Source of the DNA: Roseospira goensis
GTDB lineage: Bacteria; Pseudomonadota; Alphaproteobacteria; Rhodospirillales; Rhodospirillaceae
Direction: 5' to 3'
Assembly (NCBI RefSeq): GCF_014197795.1
Contig: NZ_JACIGI010000003.1
Coordinates: 128,365 to 192,364 of the forward strand
DNA length: 64,000 nt
Within the stretch, counting starts at the first letter, position 1. Each line of letters begins with the position of its first letter. A program made the position numbers and the translations under genes. Positions 1 through 61,809 of the stretch are shown here, one piece after another. The notes below the pieces were generated by a model. The model saw only the letters and a program-made list of their open reading frames with translations. It searched no databases and was not told the origin of the DNA.

Positions 1-2988
1 GCCGCGCCGGTGTTCCACGACCTGGGCGGCGAGGGCGTCTCGGTCTCCTATACCCCGGGCGGTGATGCGGTGATCCTGGACGCCGACGTCACCGTCACCG
101 ACGCCGAGCTGGATGCCCTGGAAGGCGGTGCCGGCCGCTACGACGGCGCGCGTCTGAGCATCTTCCGCAGTGGCGAGTCCGTCGCGGGCGATGAGTTCTC
201 TGTTCAGCTTCCGGACACTTACACGGTCGAGTACGGCAACTCTGACGCGTGGTGGATTCGCAAAGGCGGAGACGCCGTCGCAAATTACACCGTATCGGGG
301 GGCTTGTTTTACCTCCTTTTCAATGCGGCCGCCACAACGGCGGAGGTCAACACGATCCTCCAAGCCATCGAGTATTCCAACAGCGGGGAGACGCCGCCCG
401 ACAGCGTTGACCTGACCTGGACCTTCAACGACGGCAGCGACGCGGACAACGCCACCACCACCGGCACCACCACGGTCACCATGCTCGACCCCACGCCGGC
501 GATCACCCTGCCGGCCGTGGCGGCGGTGGACGAGGACCCCGCCGAGGCGGTCGCCCTCAAGGGCGCGGAGGGCGCGGTCATCACCATCGCCGACGGCGAC
601 GGCACCGACCAGCAGGTCAGCATTGAGACCGAGGACGGCGCGCTGGGGATCACCGGCGCGACCGGAAGTGATATCGACGGCAGCGACGGCACGCTGGCCT
701 TCACCGGCACCCTGGATCAGGTCAACGCCGCCCTGGCCAGCCTGACCTTCGCGCCGGACGAGAACTTCAACGGCGACGCCGAGATCACGATCACGACCCA
801 GGACGCGGACCACGAGCCGGTCAGCGACACCCTGACCGTGACCGTCGATCCCGTGAACGACGCCCCGGAGTTCGCCAACCTGGGCGGCGAGGGCGTGTCG
901 GTCTCCTACACCCCGGGCGGGGACCCGGTGGTCCTGGACGACGATGTCACCGTCGCCGACGTCGAACTGGATGCCGGGGCCGACGGTGCCGGGAGCTACG
1001 ACGGCGCCACCCTGACCATTACCCGCAAGGACGGCGCGAACGAGGACGATGAGTTCGCGGTTCAGATTCCGGACCCTTACGAGGTCAAATCCGGCGAATA
1101 CCCTGACAGTGGGTTGGTTTCCAAAGGCGACTCTCTCATAGCATATCACGTCACATCGGGGGGCGTGTTTAGCCTCCATTTCTATCCGGCCGCCACAACG
1201 GCGGACGTGAATGCGATCCTCCAGGCCATCCAGTATTCCAACAGCGGGGAGACGCCGCCCGACAGCGTTGACCTGACCTGGACCTTCGACGACGACAGCG
1301 GCGCGGACAACGCCACCACCACCGGCACCACCACGGTGACCCTGGGCGCCGAGCCCGAACCGGATCCGGACCCCCAGCCCGATCCGGACCCGCAGCCCGA
1401 TCCGGACCCCGAGCCCGAGCCCGAGCCCAAGCCGGACCCCGACCCCGAGCCGGACCCCGAGGACGAGCCGGACCCCGAGGACGAGCCCGAGTCCGAGGAC
1501 GACGACCTGTTCACCGGCGACGACCGATCGACCGTCGACGAGGGGCTAAACAGCGGCCTGACCCCGACCGGCGACTTCGAGGAAAGCACCCTGGACGGCG
1601 CCCCGGTGACCCGGGGCAGCACCACCGACAGCCGCACCGGCGAGAGGGTGCAGGTCCTGCTGAGCGATCCGACCGGCGACGAGCGCCAGGACGAGGACCC
1701 GACCACCCCGGACGTGGACATCCCGGTCACCGATACGGTGGCGGTGCACAAGCCGGACGCGCTGGGCCTGCTGGCGACATCGCGCACCACCACGGACCGC
1801 GATGCGCTCGACCTGCTGGCCGGCGGCGGCGACGACGACGGCGAGACCGATCCCGAGCAGGCGGCCGGCCGTCAGGCGTTCGTGGATGACATCATGGCCC
1901 GCGCCGACACCGGCCCGGGCGGCGTCTCGGTGGTGCAGGTGCGGCCGATCTGGCCCAGCGACGGCGGCGACCCCGACGGTCCGTTGACCCTGACCCTGGA
2001 CCTGAGCGGCGCCGGCGTGGACGACGAGGGCCGGCCGGTCGTGGTCGTCATCGACACCAGCAACCTGTGCGGCCCGGACGGCCAGCCGCTGGGCGACGTG
2101 GACATCGTCGTGAACGGCGCCGGTCCGGTCGTGGTGCGTGGCCCCGGCACCTTCACCGGCGGCGACGGTGATTCCGGCCCCGACATCGACATCATCCAGG
2201 GCGATGGCGCCTCACAGGTGCTGTTCTTCGGCCCCGGCGACGACATCATCCGCGCCGGCGGCGGCGACGATGAGGTCTCGTCCTCGGGCGGCGACGACCG
2301 CCTGTTCGGCGACGGCGGCGACGACACCCTGGACGGCGGCGACGGCAACGACATCCTGGTCGGCGGCGCCGGCAGCGACGTGCTCCACGGCGGCGCCGGC
2401 CTCGACGTCGCCCAGATCGCCGCCACCCCCGCCGGCCTGGCCCTGACCCGCGGACACGACGGCGGCGCCGTCCTGCGCCTGGGTGAGGACACGGACACCA
2501 TCGGGGCCGATGTCGAGTTGATCGTCGCCGCCGGCGACGGCGCCATGACCCTCACGGCGCCCGGCGGGGCGACGCTGGTCGACGGCCTGGCCTTCGACGC
2601 CGCGTTCTACCTGGAGCACAACCCGGACGTGGCGGCGGTGGTGGCGGCCGGCGCCCTGCCCGACGCGGCGGCGCACTTCGTCCAGTGGGGCCTGGCGGAG
2701 GGCCGGGCGCCGCACCTGCTGTGGGACGAGGGGGCCTACCTGGACGCCTACACGGACGTCGCGGCGGCGGTCGCCACGGGTGCCCTCGCCTCCGGCCTGC
2801 AGCACTACGCGATGTTCGGCGCCGCCGAGGGCCGCGCCCCCAGCCCGTGGTTCGACGCCCGCGCCTACCTCGACGCCAACCCGGACGTCGCCGCCGCCGG
2901 CCTGGACGCGCTGGCCCACTTCGTCCTGTGGGGCGCCGCCGAGGGCCGCCTGGGCACGGTCGCCGACGACGGCCTGCTGATCGCCTAG
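1..2988 (+). CDS. Large RTX/cadherin-like surface protein (5' end missing)
   Basis: The reading frame is open from base 1, and the first residues fall inside a repeat that recurs later, so the true start lies upstream. The visible 995 or so residues hold two copies of a domain of about 160 residues (near 1-160 and 290-447) beginning LGGEGVSVSYTPGG, separated by a cadherin/VCBS-like domain with the typical VNDAP junction. An acidic Pro-Asp linker follows (about 450-500), then RTX nonapeptide repeats of the GGDGND type (about 745-800). The end (about 864-990) has three repeats of the form YLxxNPDVAAxxxxG, each closing with WGxAEGR or FGAAEGR. RTX repeats bind calcium and usually mark substrates of type I secretion; no secretion genes are in the window. 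The role is probably adhesion or a surface layer (inferred). The stop codon lies within a dispersed repeat. Confidence 0.85.
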   Translation, partial: AAPVFHDLGGEGVSVSYTPGGDAVILDADVTVTDAELDALEGGAGRYDGARLSIFRSGESVAGDEFSVQLPDTYTVEYGNSDAWWIRKGGDAVANYTVSGGLFYLLFNAAATTAEVNTILQAIEYSNSGETPPDSVDLTWTFNDGSDADNATTTGTTTVTMLDPTPAITLPAVAAVDEDPAEAVALKGAEGAVITIADGDGTDQQVSIETEDGALGITGATGSDIDGSDGTLAFTGTLDQVNAALASLTFAPDENFNGDAEITITTQDADHEPVSDTLTVTVDPVNDAPEFANLGGEGVSVSYTPGGDPVVLDDDVTVADVELDAGADGAGSYDGATLTITRKDGANEDDEFAVQIPDPYEVKSGEYPDSGLVSKGDSLIAYHVTSGGVFSLHFYPAATTADVNAILQAIQYSNSGETPPDSVDLTWTFDDDSGADNATTTGTTTVTLGAEPEPDPDPQPDPDPQPDPDPEPEPEPKPDPDPEPDPEDEPDPEDEPESEDDDLFTGDDRSTVDEGLNSGLTPTGDFEESTLDGAPVTRGSTTDSRTGERVQVLLSDPTGDERQDEDPTTPDVDIPVTDTVAVHKPDALGLLATSRTTTDRDALDLLAGGGDDDGETDPEQAAGRQAFVDDIMARADTGPGGVSVVQVRPIWPSDGGDPDGPLTLTLDLSGAGVDDEGRPVVVVIDTSNLCGPDGQPLGDVDIVVNGAGPVVVRGPGTFTGGDGDSGPDIDIIQGDGASQVLFFGPGDDIIRAGGGDDEVSSSGGDDRLFGDGGDDTLDGGDGNDILVGGAGSDVLHGGAGLDVAQIAATPAGLALTRGHDGGAVLRLGEDTDTIGADVELIVAAGDGAMTLTAPGGATLVDGLAFDAAFYLEHNPDVAAVVAAGALPDAAAHFVQWGLAEGRAPHLLWDEGAYLDAYTDVAAAVATGALASGLQHYAMFGAAEGRAPSPWFDARAYLDANPDVAAAGLDALAHFVLWGAAEGRLGTVADDGLLIA

Positions 2989-3108
2989 CGCCGATCGCTC
3001 GAAATCGGAACCACCGGGGTGGGGCCGATTTCGAGCGTGACTCGGCCCGATCTTTTGGTTTCAGGGTGGATCGCACGGCATTGGACCCGCGCCCGGGCTC
3101 CAATGCCG
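2985..3108. repeat. Two-hairpin dispersed repeat, copy 1
   Basis: The copy begins with CTAGCGCCGAT, as do copies 2 and 3. The TAG in it is the stop codon of the RTX gene. The left hairpin has the same perfect 12-bp arms (GCTCGAAATCGG and its complement) as the other copies. The right hairpin differs in sequence, with 10-bp arms at 3076-3085 and 3099-3108, but keeps the same position and shape. The rest of the gap up to 3279 shows nothing recognisable. Confidence 0.85.
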
Positions 3109-3278: not shown

Positions 3279-6200
3279 TCAGGCCAGCAGGAGGGTGTCG
3301 TCGGCGACGGTGCCCAGGCGGCCCTCGGCGGCCCCCCAGAGGACGAAGTGGGTCAGCGCGTCGAGGCCGGTGGCGGCGACATCCGGATAGGCGTCGAGGT
3401 AGGCGCTGGCATCGAACCACGGGCCGGGGTCGCGGCGCTCGGCGGCGCCGAACAGGGCGTAGTGCTGGAGGCCGGAGGCGAACGTGCCGGCGGCCACCGC
3501 GGCGGCCACGTCGGGATAGGCGTCGCGGTAGGCGGCCTCGTCCCACAGGGCGTTGGGCGCGCGGCCCTCGGCCAGGCCCCAGGCGGCAAAGTGGTCGGCC
3601 GCGCTGGCCAGCGCGCCGGCCGCGACGGCGGCGGCCACGTCCGGATTGTGCTCCAGGTAGAACGCGGGATCGAAGGCGAGACCGGCGACCGGCACGGCCC
3701 CGCCCGGATTGCTCAGCGTCATGGCGCCGTCGCCGGCGGCCACCAGGATCTCCACGTCGGGCTCGATCGTGTCGACGTCCGTGCCGTGGCGCAGCAGCAG
3801 GCTGCCGTCGGCGGCACGGGTCAGGGCCAGCACGTCGGCCGTGGCGGCGATCTGGGCCACGTCGACGCCGGCGCCGCCGCCCAGGGTGTCGCTGCCGGAA
3901 CCGCCGATCAGGATGTCGTCGCCCTCGCGCGAGCGCACGATGTCGTCACCGCCGCCGCCGTCCAGGGTGTCGTCGCCGACGCCCAGGTTGACGTCCTGGG
4001 CACCGTCGTCGCCGACGAAGAACGTGGTCCCGGCGCCGCCGGTCACCGTGACGTCGCCGATGACAATGGCGAGCCCGATGTTGTCCAGGGCCAGCGTCGC
4101 GCCGGGCGGCAGATCGCGGGCGTCGATGATGACCGCCGTGGTGGCGTCTCCGCCGTCGCCGCCGTCGATGGTGATCGGCTGGTCCGGGGTCCCGTCGCCC
4201 ACGAAGGTGGGGGTGAGGGTCGAGACCCAGCGCGGCGAGCCGCCGCCCTCCTGGCCGGCGAAGAAGCTCTGCACGGCCTGGTCGAGGTCCTCCGAGGGCA
4301 GGTCGCCCAGCAGCACCCGCAGGCCGTTCTGCAACTCGATGACGCCGGCGGCGGCGTCCAGCCTGACCGACGGGCCGCTGGCGGTCAGCCCCACGCCCAG
4401 GGGCAGCGTGGCGCGCAGGCCCGGGTCGTCGTCCGCCCCGGCGACCACATGGTCGGAGAGGCCGTTGCCGAAGTCGTCCGGGTCCTCGCCCTCCTGGAAG
4501 CCGTCGAAGGGGTCGATGGTGATGGTCTCGACCACGGTGCCGTCGTCGCGGGTCTCGGTGGTGGTGGTGACCGTGGTGCCCTCGACGGTCTCGGTGGTGC
4601 CGTCGCCATCGCCGCCATTCCCGCCGTCGCTATCCCCGCCATCACCAGTCCCACCGTCGCCATCGCCGCCCTCGTCCCCGTCGCCCGGTCCGGCCGGCGG
4701 ATCCGGCGGGTCGGCGGGCGGTGCCGGCGCGACGACGGTGACGGCGATCGTATCGGTATCGGTCTGGTCGCCGTCGGTGGTGGTCATGGTGATGGTCTGG
4801 GTCCCGGGGGCCCCGGGCGTTGCGGCATCGGTCGCGGCCGTGTAGGTGACGGTCGCCAGGGTGGCGTTGACGTCGGCCAGCGCGCCCGTGATGGTCAGCG
4901 TGGCGGAGCCGCCCCCGGCCACGGCCGCAGGTCCGGTGGCGCCGAAGACCCCGGCCCCTGCCGCCACGGACAGGGTGGTGGTCACCGTCGCGCTATCAGG
5001 GTCGGCCACCGCCAGGCCGCGCAGCGGCAGCCCGTTACCCGTGAGCGCGGTCCAGGTCGCCGGCGCGGTGTTCTCTGGCGGGTCGCCCCCGGCGACGGTG
5101 ACACGGGCGGCCTCGGAGGGGGTGCCAGCGGCGCCGTCGGTCACGGTGACATCGAAGACGTGGTCGCCGCTCTGACCCGGGGCGTACAGCAGCGCGTTCA
5201 GGAGCATCCCGACGCGCGCCGGGGTGGCGTCGGCGCTGCTGAAGGTGATGACCAGGTCATCGGTGCCCTGGCCGGCTGTGGTCACGGTGCCGATGTCGGT
5301 GCCGCCCACGGCCACCGTCTCCCCGGCGCCCAGCATGCCGTCGCCGCCGGCGGTGGCCTGGCCGGCATCCAGGCTGAAGCCGCCGGTCAGCGTGGTCGAG
5401 ACCCGGGTCACGGTCAGGGTGCCGCCGTCGAAGTCCGCCGAGTCCCCGTCGGTGACCGTGGCCGCGGTGCCGCGGTCGATGGCCACGGTGCCCCCGAGCC
5501 CGGCCTTGACGGTGTCACCGTCGAGGTCGAGCAGGGTCGGCCGGTCCTGCACCGTGACGGCGATGGTGTCGGTGTCGGTGTTGGTGCCGTCGCTGCTGAG
5601 CACCGTGACGGTCTGCGCGCCGGTGCTGTCGACCGCGGGGGTGTAGACCAGGGTGCCCAGGGTGGCGTTGACGTCGGCGAGGGTGCCGGCGATCTGGAGG
5701 CTCTCGGTGCCGTCGCCGGTGATGGTGGCCGCGCCGGTGGCGCTGAAGGTGCCGTCGCCGCCGGGCACCGAGACCGTGGTGGTCACCGTGGCGCTGTCGG
5801 CATCGGCGACCGAAATGCCGCCCAGCGCCAGGGCGGTGCCGTCGACGGCGGTCTGTGCACCGGGGACCGTGTTGACGGGCGGCGCCTCGACCGTGACCGT
5901 GAAGGCGGCCGGCGTCGAGGTTGCCGCGTTGGCGCCGGCGTCGGTGATGGTGGCCGCGAAGGGATGCGCGCCGGCCTGGCTGCCGGCGTACTCAAGGGCG
6001 CGCAGGAGCGTCTGCACCGCCGCCGGGGTGGCGTCCGTGCTGGTGAAGGTGATGACCAGATCGTTGGTGCCCTGGCCGTCGGTGGTGACGGTGCCGATGT
6101 TTGTGCCGCCCACGGCCACGGTCTCGCCGGCCGCGATGGTGCCGTCGCCGCCGGACGTCACGCCCGTGCCGAGACCGAAGTCGCCGGACAGCCCGCCGGT

Positions 6201-9200
6201 GCGAGTGACGGTCAGGGTGCCGCCGTCGAAATCGGCGGAATCGGCGTCGGTCACCGTGGCGTCGCCGCCGGCGTCGACCGCCACGGTGGCGCCGCTGGCC
6301 GCGGTCACGCTGTCGCCGTCCAGGTTGCCGATCACCGGCGGGTTGGGGGTGACGGTGAGGGTGAAGGCGCCGCCGTCGTCCTGGTCGCCGCCGGTCGCGG
6401 TGCCATCGGCGTCGTTCAGGGTCAGCGTGAACTGGCGCGCCCCCAGCCCGGACGGCGCGTCGTAGGTCAGGGCCTGGATCAGGGTCTCGATGCGGGCCGA
6501 GGTCGCATTGGCATTGAAGGCGATCTCAAGCGTGTTGCCGCCCTGGCCGTCGTTGGTAGCGTCGACGGTGCCGATCGAGACCCCGCCGACCGCCACGGTC
6601 TCGCCCGCCGCGATCGTGCCGTCGCCGCCGGCGGTCGTGGTGGTGCCGTCCAGGCCCCAGGACCCGTTGGTCGTGCCGCTGTCCTGCGCGAGGGTCAGGG
6701 ACCCGCCGTCGTAGTCGGCGGAATCGGGGTTCGCGACCGTGGCGTCGTTCAGGTCGGTGACGTCCTGCGCTCCGGCCCCGGCCGTGACCTGCGACGCGCT
6801 GTCGCCGAAGACGTTGCCGACCACGGGCGGGTCGTTGACGGCCGTCAGGCCGACGGTGGAGGTCAGGGTCAGGGCGGCCGTGTCGGTACCGCCGCCGGTG
6901 TCCACCAGTTCGGTCAGGGTGACGACCCGGTTCGCCCCCGTGGTGGGGTCTTCGCTGGTGTTGCGATAGGCCAGCGCGTCCACCAGGGTTTGCACCTGGG
7001 CCGCGGTCAGGCTCGCCCCAGTGAAGGACACGGTGGCCGTCGATCCCGTCACCGAGACATCCAAGGTCAGGCCGTTGGTGGCCGTGGGGGTCACGGTGTT
7101 GCCGTCGGTCAGGGCCACGTCGGAGCCGTCAACGCGCAGGATTTCGCTGGCGCCGTCGCTGACGTTGGTCACGGTCAGGGTCAGGCTGCTGATCCGGTCC
7201 GCCGCTTCCACCGTCGAGGCCGTCACGCCGCTGAACAGGTCCGATCCGGGCGCCCCCGTGCCCTCGACGAAGGTCGGGTCCTGACCGGTCGCGGTCAGGG
7301 TGGGCGGATCGTTGACGCTGGTGATCGAGACCGTGGTGGATCCGGTGTCGGTGCCGGGGTTGTCGCCGCTGCCCTGGGCGTCGCCGCTGTTGCCGTCGCT
7401 GACGGTCCAGTCGAGTTGCACGCTGGCCGGCGGATCGTCGCTGGCGTTGGCGTATTGGATCGCCTGCAGCACCTCGTTCACGAGGGCCGTGGTCGGCGTC
7501 GTGCCGTTGTCGGCGAAGGTGAGTTGGAGCTGGCCGTTGCCGGTGTTCGCGATGGTGGCGATGACGTTACCGCCCGCACTCACCGTGCCGCCACCATCCG
7601 GGCCGCCGGCGACCGTGAGGTTGCCGCCCGAGGCGACCGACAGGCGGTCGTCGGCGTTGGCCCCGCCGGTGCGGGCGATGGTCAGGCCGGCGCCGCTATA
7701 GTCGCCGTTGCCGCCGTTGCGGGCGTCCAGTTCGACGTCCGCGACGGTGACGTTGGCGTCGAGCGTGACCGCGGCGCCGTCCTCGGCGTACGTCGGCGTC
7801 CCGTCCAGCCCGGCGAAGGCGGGCGGGTCGTTCTGGGCGGTGACATCGACGGTCATGGTCGATGCCGACGCGGCGAAGGCCGTCCCGTCGCCGACCGAGA
7901 AGGTGAACGTGGACAGCGCAGTCCCGGCCTGGTTCGTCGGCGGGGTGTACTGCAGGTTGCCGGCGGTGATGTCGGCGACGGCGACGGTGTCACCGTTGGC
8001 CAGGATCTCGCCGCCCTGGGCCATGTCGTCGTTGTTGGCATCCACGAACAGCGTGCCGGTGGCGGGGATCCCGTCGATGCGAACCGACTGTAGAGTGTCG
8101 CCGGTGTCGGCGTCGTTGAAGTTGAACTCGCCGGCGGCGAAGACGTGGTTCGTGTCCTCGTTGGTCGTCACCGTGTTGTCGGTGGCGGTGGGGGCGTCGT
8201 TCTGGGCGGTGACGTTGACGGTCATGGTCGACGCCGACGCGGCGAAGGCCGTCCCGTCGCCGACCGAGAAGGTGAACGTGGTCAGCGGGGTCCCGGCCTG
8301 GTCCGTCGGTGGGGTGTACTGCAGGTTGCCGGCGGTGATGTCGGCGACGGCAACGGTGTCACCGTTGGCCAGGATCTCGCCGCCCTGGGCCGTGTCGTCG
8401 TTGTTGGCATCCACGAACAGCGTGCCGGTGGCGGGGATACCGTCGATGCGCACCGACTGCAGGGTGTCGGCGCTGTCCACGTCATTGAAGTTGAACTCGC
8501 CGGCGGCGAAGACGTGGTTGGTGTCCTCGGCGGTCGTTACCGTGTTGTCGGTGGCGGTGGGGGCGTCGTTCTGGGCGGTGACGTTGACGGTCATGGTCGA
8601 CGCCGACGCGGCGAAGGCCGTCCCGTCGCCGACCGAGAAGGTGAACGTGGTCAGCGGGGTCCCGGCCTGGTCCGTCGGTGGGGTGTACTGCAGGTTGCCG
8701 GCGGTGATGTCGGCGACGGCGACGGTGTCACCGTTGGCCAGGATCTCGCCGCCCTGGGCCGTGTCGTCGTTGTTGGCATCCACGAACAGCGTGCCGGTGG
8801 CGGGGATACTGTCGATGCGCACCGCCTGAAGGGTGTCGGCGCTGTCCACGTCATTGAAGTTGAACTCGCCGGCGGCGAAGACGTGGTTGGTGTCCTCGTT
8901 GGTCGTCACCGCGTTGTCGGTGGCGGTGGGGTCGTCGTTGAGCCCCGTCAGGGTGATCGTCGCGGTGTCACTGCCACTGTCGCCCGGGCCGTCGGTGGCC
9001 GTCGCGGTGAGGGTGCGCGTGCCGGCGGTCCCGGTGGGGTCCTCGGAGGTTGTGCGGTACTGGATCGACTGCGCCAGCTCCTGGACGATGGCGTTGGTCG
9101 CGCTGGCGTTGAACGTGATGGTGAGCAGGGCGCCCCCGGTGACCACGCCGTCGTTGGCGGTGCCGCTGGACTCGGTGACCGTGCCGACCGCGCCCGTGCC

Positions 9201-12646: not shown

Positions 12647-12822
12647 ATAGCACACGCCCGCCCTGGCGACGCCTGTCGGCGCACGGATCGCCGCATCGCG
12701 CCCCCGACCGCGCTCCAACGCGGCCCTGTCAGAAAGATTGACGGACGCCTGTCGCACAACTTACTCTGACGGCTCGCACAGCGTGCGCGGCGGCTTGGGC
12801 AGTCCGGTTTGGGGGAAGCGGC

Positions 12823-13983
12823 ATGACGGCAGCAGCGGCAAGGACGGCCAGGACAGCAAGGCCGGCCGGAACGGCAAGGCCGGCCAGGACAGCAAGGCCG
12901 GCCAGGACAGCAAGGACGGCCAGGACAGCAAGGACGGCCAGGACAGCAAGGACGGCCAGGACAGCAAAGACGGCCAGGGGCGTCCGACGGCACCGCCTGA
13001 TCGGGGGCGCGGTCCGGGCCGTCGTCGGACTGGCCCTGCTGCTGGCGGCGGGGCTGGCCGCGCCGGTCACGGGGCCGGCCCACGCCGGGGACGCCTGGCC
13101 GACCCGTCCGGTCACCCTGATCGTTCCGTCCGGCGCCGGCGGCGGCACCGACCAGACCGGGCGCCTGCTGGCGCATCGCCTGGAGGCCCGCTTCGGCCAG
13201 CCGTTCACGGTGATCAACCAGGGCCAGGGCGGCGGCGTGGTGGGCCTCGGCACCCTGAAGGACGCCGCGCCGGACGGCTACACCCTCGGCATCCTGTACA
13301 ACTTCGCCCACTACGCCCCGATGGGGCAGGCCGATTTCCAGGTCGACGACTTCACCCCCATCGCCCAGTACAACGCCGATCCGGCCGCGATCCACGTCCG
13401 CGCCGACAGCCCGTGGCCCGACCTGACCACCGCCCTGGAGGCCCTCAAGGGCGCCCCGGACGGCTATACCATCGCCTGCGCCGGCGGCTGCGGCGGCTCC
13501 TGGCCGATGGCCATCGCCACCCTGCTGGAGGCCCGGGCCGTCGACCTCGCCCGCGTGCGCATGATCCCCAGCCAGGGCGCGGCGGCGTCGCTCCAGGATC
13601 TCGCGGCCGGCGGCGTCGACGTCGTGCCCTGCTCTCTGCCGGAGGCCGCCGCGCTGCGACAGGCCGGCGTGGTGCGCACCCTGGCCGTGTTCGGCCGTGA
13701 GCGGCTGGCGGCGTTTCCGGACGTGCCCACACTGGCCGAGCAACTCGGCGTGACGCTGGACCTGGGCGCATGGCGCGGCCTGGTAGGACCGGCCGGGCTG
13801 CCCGGGCCGGTGGCCGACCGCCTGGAGGCGGCGATGCGGGATATCGTGCACGATCCCGGCTTCCGCGCCGAGATGACGGCCCGGGGCTTCGGCCTGGCCT
13901 GGCGCGATGCCACCGCCTTCGCGCGCTTCATGCGCGCCCAGGAGACCCAGGTCCGCGCCGTGATCCCGAGACTGGGCCTGTGA
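12823..13983 (+). CDS. tctC: Tripartite tricarboxylate transporter, periplasmic binding protein (system 1)
   Basis: 386 residues of the Bug/TctC family. Residues 1-50 are an unusual Ala-Arg-Thr repeat, followed by RRHRLIGG, a hydrophobic core and an AHAGD cleavage site, then the family start WPTRPVTLIVPSGAGGGTD. TctC captures a carboxylate in the periplasm and delivers it to TctAB. No alternative in-frame start exists between the repeat and the hydrophobic core, so the ATG at 12823 is the best choice, which gives an atypically long n-region. The gene is first in tctCBA and overlaps tctB by 4 bases. Confidence 0.88.
   Translation: MTAAAARTARTARPAGTARPARTARPARTARTARTARTARTARTARTAKTARGVRRHRLIGGAVRAVVGLALLLAAGLAAPVTGPAHAGDAWPTRPVTLIVPSGAGGGTDQTGRLLAHRLEARFGQPFTVINQGQGGGVVGLGTLKDAAPDGYTLGILYNFAHYAPMGQADFQVDDFTPIAQYNADPAAIHVRADSPWPDLTTALEALKGAPDGYTIACAGGCGGSWPMAIATLLEARAVDLARVRMIPSQGAAASLQDLAAGGVDVVPCSLPEAAALRQAGVVRTLAVFGRERLAAFPDVPTLAEQLGVTLDLGAWRGLVGPAGLPGPVADRLEAAMRDIVHDPGFRAEMTARGFGLAWRDATAFARFMRAQETQVRAVIPRLGL
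12838..12977 (+). repeat. 18-bp tandem repeats at the start of tctC
   Basis: Repeats of aaggacggccaggacagc and close variants (aaggccggccaggacagc) run through the first 50 codons of tctC and encode Ala-Arg-Thr units. Because the unit is a multiple of three, copy number change would alter the length but not the frame of the leader. Confidence 0.85.
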
Positions 13984-36873: not shown

Positions 36874-38184
36874 TCACGGGTACTCGAACCGGTCGCGGCT
36901 GTCGGCGAAGCGTTGCGCCGCCGGGCCGTGCAGCGCCGGCCGGAACATCAGCCGGCCCAGACCGCCGTCGGCCACCAGCACCCGCTCGGCCCAGGCCCGC
37001 TCCGACGCCGCCATCAGCGACCACGCCGCCCGGTCGGCGGGGATGGCGTCGGCGGCGGAGGCCCAGGCGGCCTGCATCGGCGGCGCCGCCATCACGGCGA
37101 TCAACCGTCGCGCGGCCACCGGATGCGGCGCCCCCTGCGGCATCGCCAGCCCATCCATCCAGGCCGGCGCGCCCTCGCGTGGCACGCGGGCGACCGCCGC
37201 CGGCGCGCTAGCGCCGATCGCTCGAAATCGGAACCACCGGGGTGGGGCCGATTTCGAGCGTGACTCGGCGCGATCTGTTGGGTTCAGAGCGGAACGCCCG
37301 AATTCGAAATCACCATGCGAGTCCATATTCGGGCGTTCCGCTCTAGGGTGGCGGGCCAGCCGGCGGATCAGCACGTCCCAGGCCGCCCCGGCGACCACCC
37401 CGTCGCGGGCGACCGCCGTCAGGAAGGTGGCCGTGTCAGTCCACAGCGCGGCCACCTCGCGACGCCAGGCCGCCAGGGTTTCGTCCACGGCGCGGAACAG
37501 GCTGCGGGCCGCGTCCGCGTCGCCCTCCGCCCGGGCCAGGCGGCTGCCGTCCGGATCGACGAGACGCAGCGCGATCCACACCGCCGCGTCCGGCTCCAGG
37601 GTCAATCCGCCCTGCACCGCCGGGTCCCCCAGGACGGACCACGACGGGACCGCCGCCTCCGGCGCCGGGCGCCCTAGCAGCGCCGCCCCCGGCGCCCCCA
37701 GCCCGAAGGCCACGTCGAAGCCCAGGGTCATCGGCGCCAGCCACAGCGGTCCGCCGCGCTCGGCACCCCCATGCGCCACCACGGCCTCGGCCACCGCAGC
37801 CGGCGGCGAGAGCGGCAGCGGCGCGAGCAGACCCTCCGCCCGCCAGGCCGCGACCTCCTCCAGGCCGACCGTCACCACATCCACGGCCGATGCCCGCCCG
37901 CCGTCGCCCGCCGGGCCGCGCAGGCTCGCGCGCCGAACCCGCTCGCGGGCCTCGTCCGGGGTCGCCACCACGGTGACCTCCAGCGCAAGCCCATAGGCGC
38001 GCCGGAGGTAGGCACACAGCACGCGCGGCCACTGTCCCTCGTAGGCGAGCACGGCCACGCGTGCCGCGGCCGGCGCGTCGGCCGCGGCGCCCCCGGCCGG
38101 TCCCGGCAGGGCGCCGACCGCGGCGGCGCCCAGGCCGGCCCCCATCATCCGTCGACGCGAGACCCCGGCGCGGGCCGGCCCCAC
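36874..38184 (-). CDS. Solute-binding protein with in-frame repeat insertion
   Basis: 436 residues from a GTG start two bases after the preceding stop. The N-terminus MGPARAGVSRRRMMGAGLGA has a twin-Arg motif (SRRRM) and hydrophobic core, suggesting Tat export. The rest resembles extracellular solute-binding proteins of the polyamine/iron ABC type (VAVLAYEGQWPRVLCAYLRR; VDVVTVGLEEVAAWRAEGLL; WDVLIRRLARHP). A 45-residue segment starting at AERPNMDSHGDFEFG and ending RFRAIGA is encoded by the dispersed two-hairpin element and interrupts the C-terminal lobe. No permease or ATPase gene is adjacent; it is last in the operon with exbB, exbD and the TonB-like gene. Confidence 0.75.
   Translation of the reverse strand: MGPARAGVSRRRMMGAGLGAAAVGALPGPAGGAAADAPAAARVAVLAYEGQWPRVLCAYLRRAYGLALEVTVVATPDEARERVRRASLRGPAGDGGRASAVDVVTVGLEEVAAWRAEGLLAPLPLSPPAAVAEAVVAHGGAERGGPLWLAPMTLGFDVAFGLGAPGAALLGRPAPEAAVPSWSVLGDPAVQGGLTLEPDAAVWIALRLVDPDGSRLARAEGDADAARSLFRAVDETLAAWRREVAALWTDTATFLTAVARDGVVAGAAWDVLIRRLARHPRAERPNMDSHGDFEFGRSALNPTDRAESRSKSAPPRWFRFRAIGASAPAAVARVPREGAPAWMDGLAMPQGAPHPVAARRLIAVMAAPPMQAAWASAADAIPADRAAWSLMAASERAWAERVLVADGGLGRLMFRPALHGPAAQRFADSRDRFEYP
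37208..37346. repeat. Two-hairpin dispersed repeat, copy 2 (inside a gene)
   Basis: Starts CTAGCGCCGATCGCTCGAAA and ends TTCCGCTCTAG, with CTAG at 37208-37211 and again at 37343-37346. Left hairpin arms GCTCGAAATCGG/CCGATTTCGAGC are perfect over 12 bp. Right hairpin arms AGCGGAACGCCCGAAT/ATTCGGGCGTTCCGCT are perfect over 16 bp. Counting one CTAG as a target duplication, the insertion is 135 bp, exactly 45 codons, with no stop in the host frame. Confidence 0.92.
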
Positions 38185-38186
38185 CG

Positions 38187-38537
38187 CTACACCGGCTCCC
38201 ACTTGAAGGCGCGCAACAGGCCGCGGGCGGCGCGGAACGCCAACAGGACGATACCCGCCACGATCGGGATGAACCCGATGCCGAACACGAACACCAGCGG
38301 CCCGCCGATCAGCATGAGCAGCACGTAGATCCAGAAGGTGCGGATGGCCTCGTCGAAGTGGGTCTGCCAGCGCGGCGGCGCGTCGGCCCGCGAGGCGTAG
38401 GCCATCACCACCCCGATCACCAGGGTCAGCACCGGCAGCGGAATCGACACCAGATAAAGCCCATGCATGATCATCACCAGGGTCCGGGCGACACGGTCCC
38501 GGTCCGACGGCGTGTCCTGTCTGGCAAGCGGTTGCAT
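38187..38537 (-). CDS. DUF4870-like membrane protein
   Basis: 116 residues from ATG 38537 (MQPLARQDTPSDRDRVARTL). It has about three hydrophobic segments: IMHGLYLVSIPLPVLTLVIG, FWIYVLLMLIGGPLVFVFG and FIPIVAGIVLLAFRA, the second and third separated by only a few residues. A charged loop of about 30 residues (ASRADAPPRWQTHFDEAIRT) sits between the first two. This matches the DUF4870/Tic20-like group of small membrane proteins; no biochemical role is established. It lies between the TonB-like gene and the solute-binding gene in the same operon. Confidence 0.78.
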   Translation of the reverse strand: MQPLARQDTPSDRDRVARTLVMIMHGLYLVSIPLPVLTLVIGVVMAYASRADAPPRWQTHFDEAIRTFWIYVLLMLIGGPLVFVFGIGFIPIVAGIVLLAFRAARGLLRAFKWEPV

Positions 38538-38638
38538 GGGACTCCTCAGCGATTGTGGGACGAGGTCCTGGGGGGCCTCGGATCGTAGACCATGGCCGCC
38601 GGCGGCGCCCACCGTTTTCCGTCCGCCCGCCGCCTCGG

Positions 38639-40363
38639 TCACGGCCGGGTCTCGACGAACACATAGGCCCACTCGCCCCGGAACCCGGGCCGGGTGCGGG
38701 TCAGGGTGCGCAGGCGCTGGTCCAGCCAGCGCAGATACACCGCCGCGTCCTCGACCGGGGGACGCGGGACGTCCTGGATCGGATGGGTGGTCCCGAACAC
38801 GACCGCGATCTCCTGGCCGAACGGCGGCACCACGCGCATCACCGGGCCACCGCCCCCAGGCGTGCGGCCGCCGAAGGTGAAGCGGTCGCCCGCGGGCACG
38901 AAGCGCACCGGGGCATGGCGGCTCGGGGTCAGATGGATGACGCGACCCTCGCCGTCGAAGTAGTCCAGGTGGATCCAGGCATCGAACGCCGGCGCCTCGA
39001 CCTGAAGCTGAAGTAGGTCGCCGGCCCGGAAGCGCGCGATCCCCGCCTGGGCCGCCCGCCCCACCGCCAGCGGATCGTCCGCCTGGTCGCGCGACTGCGG
39101 CAGGGCGAGCCCGTCCAGCGCCCGCAGCACCCCGCATTGCGGCGGCGGCAGCACCAGCAGGTTGGTCCGGATCGGCAGGGCGCCGCCGACGGCGGCCTCC
39201 AGGCGGCGCCGGACCTGTTCCCGCAGCGCCGCGGCCGGCACGTGACCGCGCACCTCGATCCCCCCGCTCTCGGGCACCAGCGCGGCCTGGAGCCGACTGC
39301 AAGGCACGCCGGCGAGGGTCTCACCCAGGCGGTCGCGCACCGACCCGCCCCCCGCCCGGGCGGCGGCGGCCGGGCTGGGCGCCGTGAAGGTCTGGATCGC
39401 GGCGATGGACTGCGGGTCCAGGGCACCGGCGTCCCCACCGCTCCAGGCCAGCGCCGCCGTCGCGGTGTGCGCCAGGCTGGCCGGGTTCGCGGCCGAGGCC
39501 CGCGCCGCCAGCGCGCCCGCCGGCCGCGACGGAACCGCGAGTCCGCTCGGGCGCGGCCGGGGCGCCGGCACCCCGGCGGGCGGGCGCACCGGCGCCGCCG
39601 TCGCCTGCGCGGCGAGGTCGGCCGGCAGCGGGGCGGCATCGGCCACCGCATCCGCGCCGCTGACGACGGGACCGCCCGGTGCGGTGGCGGAGACGACCAC
39701 CGCCGCGCCGTCCGCCGGGGGGGCGGCGGTCGATGTCGCCAGCACCGGCGCGGCCTCCGCGGCCCGGTCTGTCGCCGAAGCAGCGACCACGGCCACGCCC
39801 CCCGGACGGCGGACGGGCACCGGGTCCGCCAGCGGCGATCCGGCGGCCAGGGCTGCGCCGTCGGGCGGGCGGCGCGCGACAACCGACGGCGCGGCCGGCG
39901 GATCGGCCGCCGGGAGCGGGTCCGCCCGTGGGGCCGCGGCAGAGATCCGACCAGGGGGCGGCGCCGGGGCCAGGGCCGGTGCCGGAGACGGCGTCACCGC
40001 CGCCGCCCGGTCCGCCGGCGCGGTGGCGACCACAGGCGGCGTCGCGACCGGCTGCGGCGCCACGGCAGAGGCGGCGGGCGTGGCCGCCGTCACGGTCTCG
40101 GCCCGCTGCACGGGAACGGCGCCCTGCCCGACCGTCCGCCCCGCCGCCGCCTCGGCCGCCGCCGCGCCCGCCGGCTCGGCCTGCGCCGCGGTGTCGCGGC
40201 GAACGCTTTCGGTCGACAGCCGCAACCGCGCCTCGACCGGCCGGGTCTCGACCGTCGGGTCCGGCGCCAGCGCAGCCGCGACGATCCCCAGTACGGCGGC
40301 GTGCACGGCCAGCGACAGCGCGCCGGCCCCGAGCCACGCCATGGGGCGGGGCACGCGGGTCAT
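38639..40363 (-). CDS. TonB-like protein with DUF4384-like C-terminal domain
   Basis: 574 residues. One N-terminal transmembrane helix (AWLGAGALSLAVHAAVLGIV) resembles the TonB anchor including the SxxxH pattern (SLAVH). A Pro/Ala-rich spacer of about 250 residues would cross the periplasm. The C-terminus is not a classical TonB domain: it has a BON/OmpA-like stretch (GIEVRGHVPAAALREQVRRR) and then a domain like DUF4384 (DLLQLQVEAPAFDAWIHLDY, followed by GRVIHLTPS), otherwise found at the ends of some protein kinases. Presumably energised by the ExbB/ExbD encoded just upstream; the target is unknown. Overlaps exbD by 4 bases. Confidence 0.72.
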   Translation of the reverse strand: MTRVPRPMAWLGAGALSLAVHAAVLGIVAAALAPDPTVETRPVEARLRLSTESVRRDTAAQAEPAGAAAAEAAAGRTVGQGAVPVQRAETVTAATPAASAVAPQPVATPPVVATAPADRAAAVTPSPAPALAPAPPPGRISAAAPRADPLPAADPPAAPSVVARRPPDGAALAAGSPLADPVPVRRPGGVAVVAASATDRAAEAAPVLATSTAAPPADGAAVVVSATAPGGPVVSGADAVADAAPLPADLAAQATAAPVRPPAGVPAPRPRPSGLAVPSRPAGALAARASAANPASLAHTATAALAWSGGDAGALDPQSIAAIQTFTAPSPAAAARAGGGSVRDRLGETLAGVPCSRLQAALVPESGGIEVRGHVPAAALREQVRRRLEAAVGGALPIRTNLLVLPPPQCGVLRALDGLALPQSRDQADDPLAVGRAAQAGIARFRAGDLLQLQVEAPAFDAWIHLDYFDGEGRVIHLTPSRHAPVRFVPAGDRFTFGGRTPGGGGPVMRVVPPFGQEIAVVFGTTHPIQDVPRPPVEDAAVYLRWLDQRLRTLTRTRPGFRGEWAYVFVETRP

Positions 40364-61670: not shown

Positions 61671-61809
61671 CTAGCGCCGATAGCTCGAAATCGGAACCAC
61701 CGGGGTGGGGCCGATTTCGAGCGTGAATCGGCGCGATCTGTTGGTTTCAGAGCGGAACGCCCGAATTCGAAATCACCATGCGATTCCGTATTCGGGCGTT
61801 CCGCTCTAT
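61671..61809. repeat. Two-hairpin dispersed repeat, copy 3
   Basis: 139 bp, the same length as copy 2 and differing at only a few positions. It begins CTAGCGCCGATAGCTCGAAA and ends TTCCGCTCTAT, the terminal CTAG having one change. Both hairpins (12-bp and 16-bp arms) are intact. The left end lies 14 bases upstream of the ytoQ ATG, right against its ribosome binding site. Confidence 0.92.

Follow-up and report, generated by a model that had tools for sequence, protein, structure and literature searches.

A CIR-like mosaic two-hairpin repeat family in Roseospira goensis, probably TA-duplicating, with one copy in frame in a protein gene

How does a palindromic sequence come to lie in frame inside a protein gene, and does it belong to a kind of element that is selected to live there? 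The question is raised by a locus in a 64,000-nucleotide stretch of the Roseospira goensis genome (assembly GCF_014197795.1, contig NZ_JACIGI010000003.1, positions 128,365 to 192,364; hereafter, the window). An initial annotation of this stretch had described a non-autonomous two-hairpin mobile repeat inserted in a solute-binding protein gene, with CTAG as the duplicated target, and had likened it to the Rickettsia palindromic elements (RPEs). The coordinates are collected in Table 1. CTAG is present at both ends, as annotated (37208-37211 and 37343-37346; period 135), and with one TA counted as duplicated target the net insertion is 135 bp. Both hairpins had also been called perfect, which holds for hairpin B (18-nt arms, 100%) but not for hairpin A, where 20-nt arms pair at 90% and an outer stem is separated from them by a bulge. 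Folding of the element gave z = -8.4 and -11.3 on the two strands (0/200 shuffles each). An Rfam scan of window positions 37100-37450 returned nothing at gathering score; its four matches were all to microRNA models below threshold, and an Rfam family was rejected for the element.

Table 1. Positions, within the window, of the host gene, the parts of the inserted element and the two further copies
Feature	Position	Strand	Remarks
Predicted solute-binding-protein-like host gene	36877..38136	-	Start codon putative; 45 residues element-encoded
Full-length type I element (L001)	37209..37345	+	TAG...CTA, 137 bp including TA at each end
Hairpin A	37211..37271	+	GANTC copy GACTC (37262-37266) spans the bulge
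Linker joining hairpins A and B	37272..37285	+	
Hairpin B, type B1	37286..37344	+	Perfect 18-nt stem; GANTC copy GAGTC at 37319-37323 in the loop
Second window copy (L027)	2986..3077	+	Hairpin A and truncated rest
Third window copy (L008)	61672..61808	+	Full-length type I; outside any continuing gene

The host frame is open across the element: a minus-strand ORF (36874-38664) reads through it with no stop, and the product matches SBP_bac_8 (PF13416) at 28.5 bits, above the cut-off of 27. We found orthologues of the host protein in five of six congeners (G001-G005; 46-51% identical) and none in the sixth, G006; a search of a wider contig collection with the host protein yielded 0 relatives. In the alignment, the residues lying between those that correspond to LAR and RVP number 54 in the host, 9 in three orthologues and 10 in the other two (hand count). 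The block is absent from 5/5 congener orthologues and a net 45 codons are extra in the host, in agreement with the annotated in-frame insertion of 135 bp, with the congener DNA of this gene too diverged for the exact empty target to be read there. Two of the six frames of the type I consensus are stop-free and four are closed, and the net lengths of 135 and 138 are both divisible by 3. The in-frame insertion is real, yet it is an exception within its family, and the open frame in the host gene looks like luck together with selection against the remaining insertions.

A BLAST search of the element against its own genome (G000; a draft assembly of 81 contigs with 72% GC) gave 101 matches, many of which were a hairpin matching itself, and 40 of 103 candidate matches were scored. 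Left-end patterns marked 68 type I and 76 type II sites, in overlapping sets, and a reversed control pattern had no matches. The 79 copies that we examined exclude L029, which consists of hairpin B alone, and L041, which shares its site with L025; both were dropped ahead of the counts. Four listed sites lie outside the set (C4:94, C5:211275 and C21:67207, near contig ends, and C5:136485), and each of the other listed sites left out is the second arm of a copy already counted or adjoins one. Type I joins hairpin A to hairpin B1, and type II joins a related hairpin A to B2 or B3; full copies measure mostly 137 bp (type I) or 140 bp (type II) from TAG to CTA. The build is mosaic, with different combinations of hairpins and arms among copies. 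With up to 3 mismatches allowed, the type II left-end pattern occurs 76 times in G000, once each in G002 and G004, and 0 times in the four other congeners; type I matches occur in 4/6 congeners, at 1-3 each with hairpin self-matches included. A pattern scan of the wider contig collection, from which records close to the window may be missing, gave 0 hits, and a weak match in another genus (G034, L047) was unrelated in appearance on inspection. The family is a burst within one lineage, and together with the empty gene in five congeners it bears out the annotated mobile, non-autonomous two-hairpin repeat.

Besides the copy in the host gene, the window holds two others. The TAG of L027 is the stop codon of an ORF ending at 2985. 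This copy lies between two stretches of 698 nt (2289-2986 and 3281-3978) that share inverted similarity (80%) and end two convergent ORFs. Further repetition in the window includes three 300-nt direct repeats with a spacing of 369 bp within a large repetitive ORF (7811-8848) and a series of short coding repeats spaced 9 bp apart (12802-12996; GGCCAGGACAGCAAG).

The terminal inverted repeats of the element are very short. Counts of ends and targets were drawn from the 59 copies first collected. The base preceding TAG in 55 copies was C in 24, T in 22, A in 5 and G in 4, that is, C or T before the TA in 46/55, and beyond the far TA it was A or G in 23/31. In the 31 copies that retain an intact TA at each end, the target was inferred to be CTAG in 7, TTAG in 7, TTAT in 5 and others in 12, and was mostly YTAR. 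Duplication was tested on 38 copies bounded by TA on either side. Three of these (L007, L010 and L015) are each nested in another palindrome, uninterrupted copies of which are L039 and L177; keeping one TA in the empty site gave a gapless alignment and keeping none left a 2-nt gap, in 3/3 cases, while the other 35 gave weak matches or none. The nested copies point to TA as the duplicated target, with which the net 135 bp of the window copy is consistent. The annotated CTAG duplication was rejected on these gapless single-TA alignments: the empty sites carry TTAT or ATAA in place of CTAG. The CTAG at both ends of the window copy would then be explained by insertion into CTAG, with the outermost G and C of the element itself completing the motif. 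As a separate observation, members of a different palindrome family (CTTTCGATCCAGACAAAAG) abut or lie near copies L002 and L004, and in L002 the element's TA is shared.

Where do the copies lie with respect to genes? Frames were called with a codon model that had 384 kb of the G000 genome as its training set. The element's own TAG terminates the neighbouring gene in 32 of the 79 copies, which makes a stop codon the most frequent site that could be recognised; one copy (L001) lies in a continuing gene, 2 are entered in another phase, and 44 are neither. Counted by ends, an open coding frame enters with the TAG as its stop at 25/79 left ends and 8/56 definable right ends, and L003 supplies the stop at both ends, so that 33 ends belong to 32 copies. 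The higher share at left ends (p 0.025) was set aside because left ends had served to collect the copies and 23 copies lack a defined right end. Of 37 ends entered by an open frame, 33 are in the phase in which TAG is the stop, compared to one third expected, and 4 are in other phases. Among 108 background YTAR sites, 28 fall inside continuing genes; the other 80 include 12 stop-type sites. The odds ratio for stop codons is 3.9 (p 0.0003) against YTAR sites outside continuing genes, 2.7 (p 0.04) against CTAG sites, and only 1.8 (p 0.017) in a looser context (Y before or R after TA), indicating that target choice accounts for much of the excess. A less strict tally of YTAR sites by predicted genes (23 at stop codons, 65 intergenic and 27 in genes) would make the excess smaller.

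Where congener orthologues of the genes that end in an element were matched, they stop at nearly the same codon. In 33/34 rows, covering 8 upstream genes, the stop of the congeneric orthologue falls within -5 to +9 codons of the element TAG, and the lone outlying row has its stop 33 codons beyond it; after removal of three pairs from overlapping loci, the count was 30/31. This comparison took in 21 copies, with congener loci from a query on 13, matches for 8/21 and offsets taken by hand. The gene upstream of L006 stops at the identical codon in 5/5 congeners. The nine bases after the congener orthologue stops showed no match to the element start.

We then looked for a transposase that could move the family. 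The IS630-type DDE_3 domain (PF13358) had 0 matches in the 81-contig draft of G000, and an IS630 driver in this assembly was rejected. IS5-type genes (DUF4096 and DDE_Tnp_1) are present in 6/7 genomes of the genus, a few per genome, and none has the element ends beyond a few bases. A scan of loci L148-L170 for inverted ends revealed one congener IS (L148) with AGAGCCTGAC ends; in the own genome, an IS5 remnant (L156) starts near GAGAGCCTGATCGG, which resembles the type II start (AGAGCC, GAT) over about ten bases. Its broken IS5-type transposase (L156 1390-1891; G000 C4, about 55.4-55.9 kb) has a B2-type repeat at the broken end. Comparison of the element consensus with L148-L170 otherwise gave one chance-level match only, and we treat an IS5-type driver as a lead only. 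A RAYT gene (NF047646, 5.2e-57) lies at L058 (G000 C6:15266-15604) between GTAGGTTGGGG-type repeats, which form a family of their own; since these are unlike the element, RAYT was rejected as the driver. These searches for IS630-type, IS5-type and RAYT genes tied no transposase to the element.

The closest known kind of repeat, compared by description only, is the CIR, the Caulobacter CcrM-associated intergenic repeat, reportedly described by Chen and Shapiro in 2003. According to PMC2229807, a CIR has two arms, a linker, a GANTC conserved in the loop of one arm or close to it and a length of about 110 bp, with stops in all six frames and no occurrence in genes; PMC10969869 also covers these repeats. 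Our element likewise is alphaproteobacterial, has a linker between two hairpin arms and conserves GANTC within the repeat, if less completely in the hairpin types outside type I. It differs in its length of 137-140 bp, in carrying GANTC in both arms, in its two open frames, and in not being strictly intergenic, with one in-frame copy and many at stop codons. The family is CIR-like, a TA-duplicating mosaic repeat by the nested copies; it is not filed as CIR, as some of those traits differ. RIMEs (Rhizobium-specific intergenic mosaic elements) are likewise two palindromes of mosaic build in Alphaproteobacteria. Br-REP1 and Br-REP2 of Bradyrhizobium (PMC5082802) are alphaproteobacterial palindromes at 3' ends whose printed consensus contains GAATC or GATTC, by our own reading a fit to GANTC, but their cores are much shorter than the element.

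Other kinds share single traits with the family. IS630-type elements duplicate TA, as do, by the alignments above, three nested copies of the 38 tested. The TA-ended MITEs (Correia/NEMIS, RUP; IS630-type), as outlined in PMC2229807, are also short, non-autonomous and bounded by TA; the element differs in having no long terminal inverted repeat, and its genome encodes no IS630-type transposase in the assembly searched. GTAG REPs and BIMEs with RAYT are, according to Di Nocera and colleagues (PMC3733652), mirrored hairpins at gene 3' ends whose termini often supply TAG stops, some of them inside ORFs; our element resembles them in these respects and differs by Y rather than G before TAG, larger hairpins, the apparent TA duplication and the GANTC sites. 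The unpaired GTAG tag is lacking (G before TAG in 4/55), and the RAYT gene, flanked by the same repeat in the GTAG REP systems, has a different one in G000. RPEs are of similar size and also insert in frame in protein genes (PMC2229807 and PMC10969869), and RPEs and other MITEs are described in frame in genes in PMC10969869 and PMC5896051; RPEs are often in genes, unlike this family (1/79), from which we set them apart by description, not by sequence. Our search of the literature, which took in few subscription papers, turned up neither a description of the family nor any mention of a hypervariable N in GANTC sites carried by repeats.

Both arms carry GANTC, the site of CcrM methylation, on which the initial annotation is silent. 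In the 21 full-length type I copies, the site is present in hairpin A in 20/21 and in hairpin B in 21/21, and the most variable columns are the two N positions (9/21 each; the next, 3/21), while the G, A, T and C stay. Random column order would place both N columns on top about 1 time in 9300, a figure to be read with caution as the copies are related; the N positions of the two arms are unlinked (7, 5, 5, 4; p 1.0). Alignments by hairpin, on filtered subsets of 27, 29, 21 and 11 rows, gave a variable N in 12/27 for type I hairpin A (next column, 3), 5/29 for type II hairpin A (tied first; GANTC intact in only 22/29), 8/21 for B2 (second to a loop column at 10; GANTC intact in 17/21), and 5 and 4 of 11 for B3 (the top two columns; GANTC intact in 9/11 and 8/11). 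GANTC sites are thus present in each of the five hairpin types examined, with the defining bases mostly kept. In type I, N takes only two bases, C/A in hairpin A and G/T in B1, and across hairpin types it is mainly two, C/A in hairpin A and G/T in the B types, with N = G also seen in type II and congener hairpin A copies. Related copies in congeners (L047 excluded) keep the hairpin A site in 6/8, with N = A, A, C, G, C and G. GANTC occurs at 14.2 per kb in elements, compared to 1.2 in genes and 3.0 in intergenic sequence, the two backgrounds being unmasked for repeat copies. The GcrA motif is given as YGAKTCK in PMC7987155, which for Brevundimonas notes that no extended motif preference was found. 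YGAKTC fits 121/131 element sites and 305/548 background sites; the strict motif was rejected for the element sites, only 9/131 of which also have the final K.

The methylation machinery itself is encoded: RAMA (CcrM) and GcrA domains occur in 7/7 genomes of the genus, and CcrM was named from its RAMA domain (over cut-off) and its best NCBIfam match, NF050803 (9e-188; 623 bits, below the cut-off of 830). In G000, ccrM (L202/L075, C15:45655) terminates at the TAG of a type II copy, L075 (...TLH-TAG), and has some 17 residues just before the stop that are absent from congeners. The congener proteins end in ...LQ (three), ...LH (one) or ...S (two), with TAG as the stop in three and TGA in three; two of these TAGs are followed by 5-6 bases like the element start (TAGGGCCGA, TAGCGCCG), where the likeness ends. 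The GANTC sites suggest a tie between the element and the CcrM/GcrA cell-cycle system.

We consider it likely that the window copy is one member of a non-autonomous, mosaic two-hairpin mobile repeat that inserts at TA, mostly in YTAR context, duplicates the TA, and would be served by a transposase acting in trans. As both ends read TAG inward, insertion into a TAG or TAA stop would restore a TAG whichever end faces the gene, and most copies would lie at stop codons or between genes because YTAR is rare inside genes at 72% GC. The window copy would be a rare in-gene insertion, retained because, in the orientation and phase in which it lies, the host gene reads one of the two frames free of stops. 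Counted against this account are the negative outcome of the transposase searches, the very short terminal inverted repeats and the odds ratio of only 1.8 in the looser context; the mosaic copies could also have spread by recombination rather than by transposition. The initial annotation had favoured an RPE-like element selected for tolerance in proteins, or for donating peptide to them, and the 45 extra residues in an uninterrupted ORF, the two stop-free type I frames and the net lengths in multiples of 3 are what such an element would show. Selection to live inside proteins is, however, largely refuted by the genome-wide count of copies by gene context (1/79 in a continuing gene vs. 28/108 background YTAR sites), and four of the six type I frames are closed; we hold this reading to be very improbable.

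A GTAG-type REP or BIME mobilised by a RAYT tyrosine transposase would account for the mirrored hairpins and for TAG ends supplied as stops, as described for GTAG REPs in PMC3733652, and G000 does have a RAYT gene. Against it, G precedes TAG in only 4/55 copies and the GTAGGTTGGGG-type repeats around that gene are unlike the element. The element also appears to duplicate TA, which is not expected of the RAYT mechanism, and we think such an origin improbable. Somewhat less doubtful, though still unlikely in our view, is a chromosomal element that is kept for a function, either control of 3' ends or translation at stops or provision of CcrM/GcrA sites, and is mobile only incidentally. The GANTC enrichment over genes and intergenic sequence, the keeping of GANTC while N varies, the position of copies at stop codons and the encoded CcrM and GcrA speak for it, and in E. 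coli, REPs lying no more than 15 nt from a stop codon reportedly cause ribosomes to stall (PMC12306157). However, nearly all the copies found are confined to a single species within the genus, and three are nested in another repeat, as a parasite's would be.

Dam sites gate the transposition of IS10 or Tn5, and in a mobile repeat family coupled to CcrM/GcrA methylation, the GANTC sites might likewise gate transposition or serve as dispersed methylation or GcrA sites; we regard this coupling as a tentative proposal that is more doubtful than the mobile repeat itself. If it were true, mutation or selection would make N a hot spot. For CIRs, PMC2229807 leaves the role of GANTC undetermined. For a mobile repeat of the kind that we prefer, a TA target in a GC-rich genome, sites that are largely stop codons or intergenic, and a stop codon in both ends would together provide a route to harmless spread. 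With GANTC kept and its N hypervariable, a young burst of copies would offer dozens of natural replicates for the question of CcrM control.
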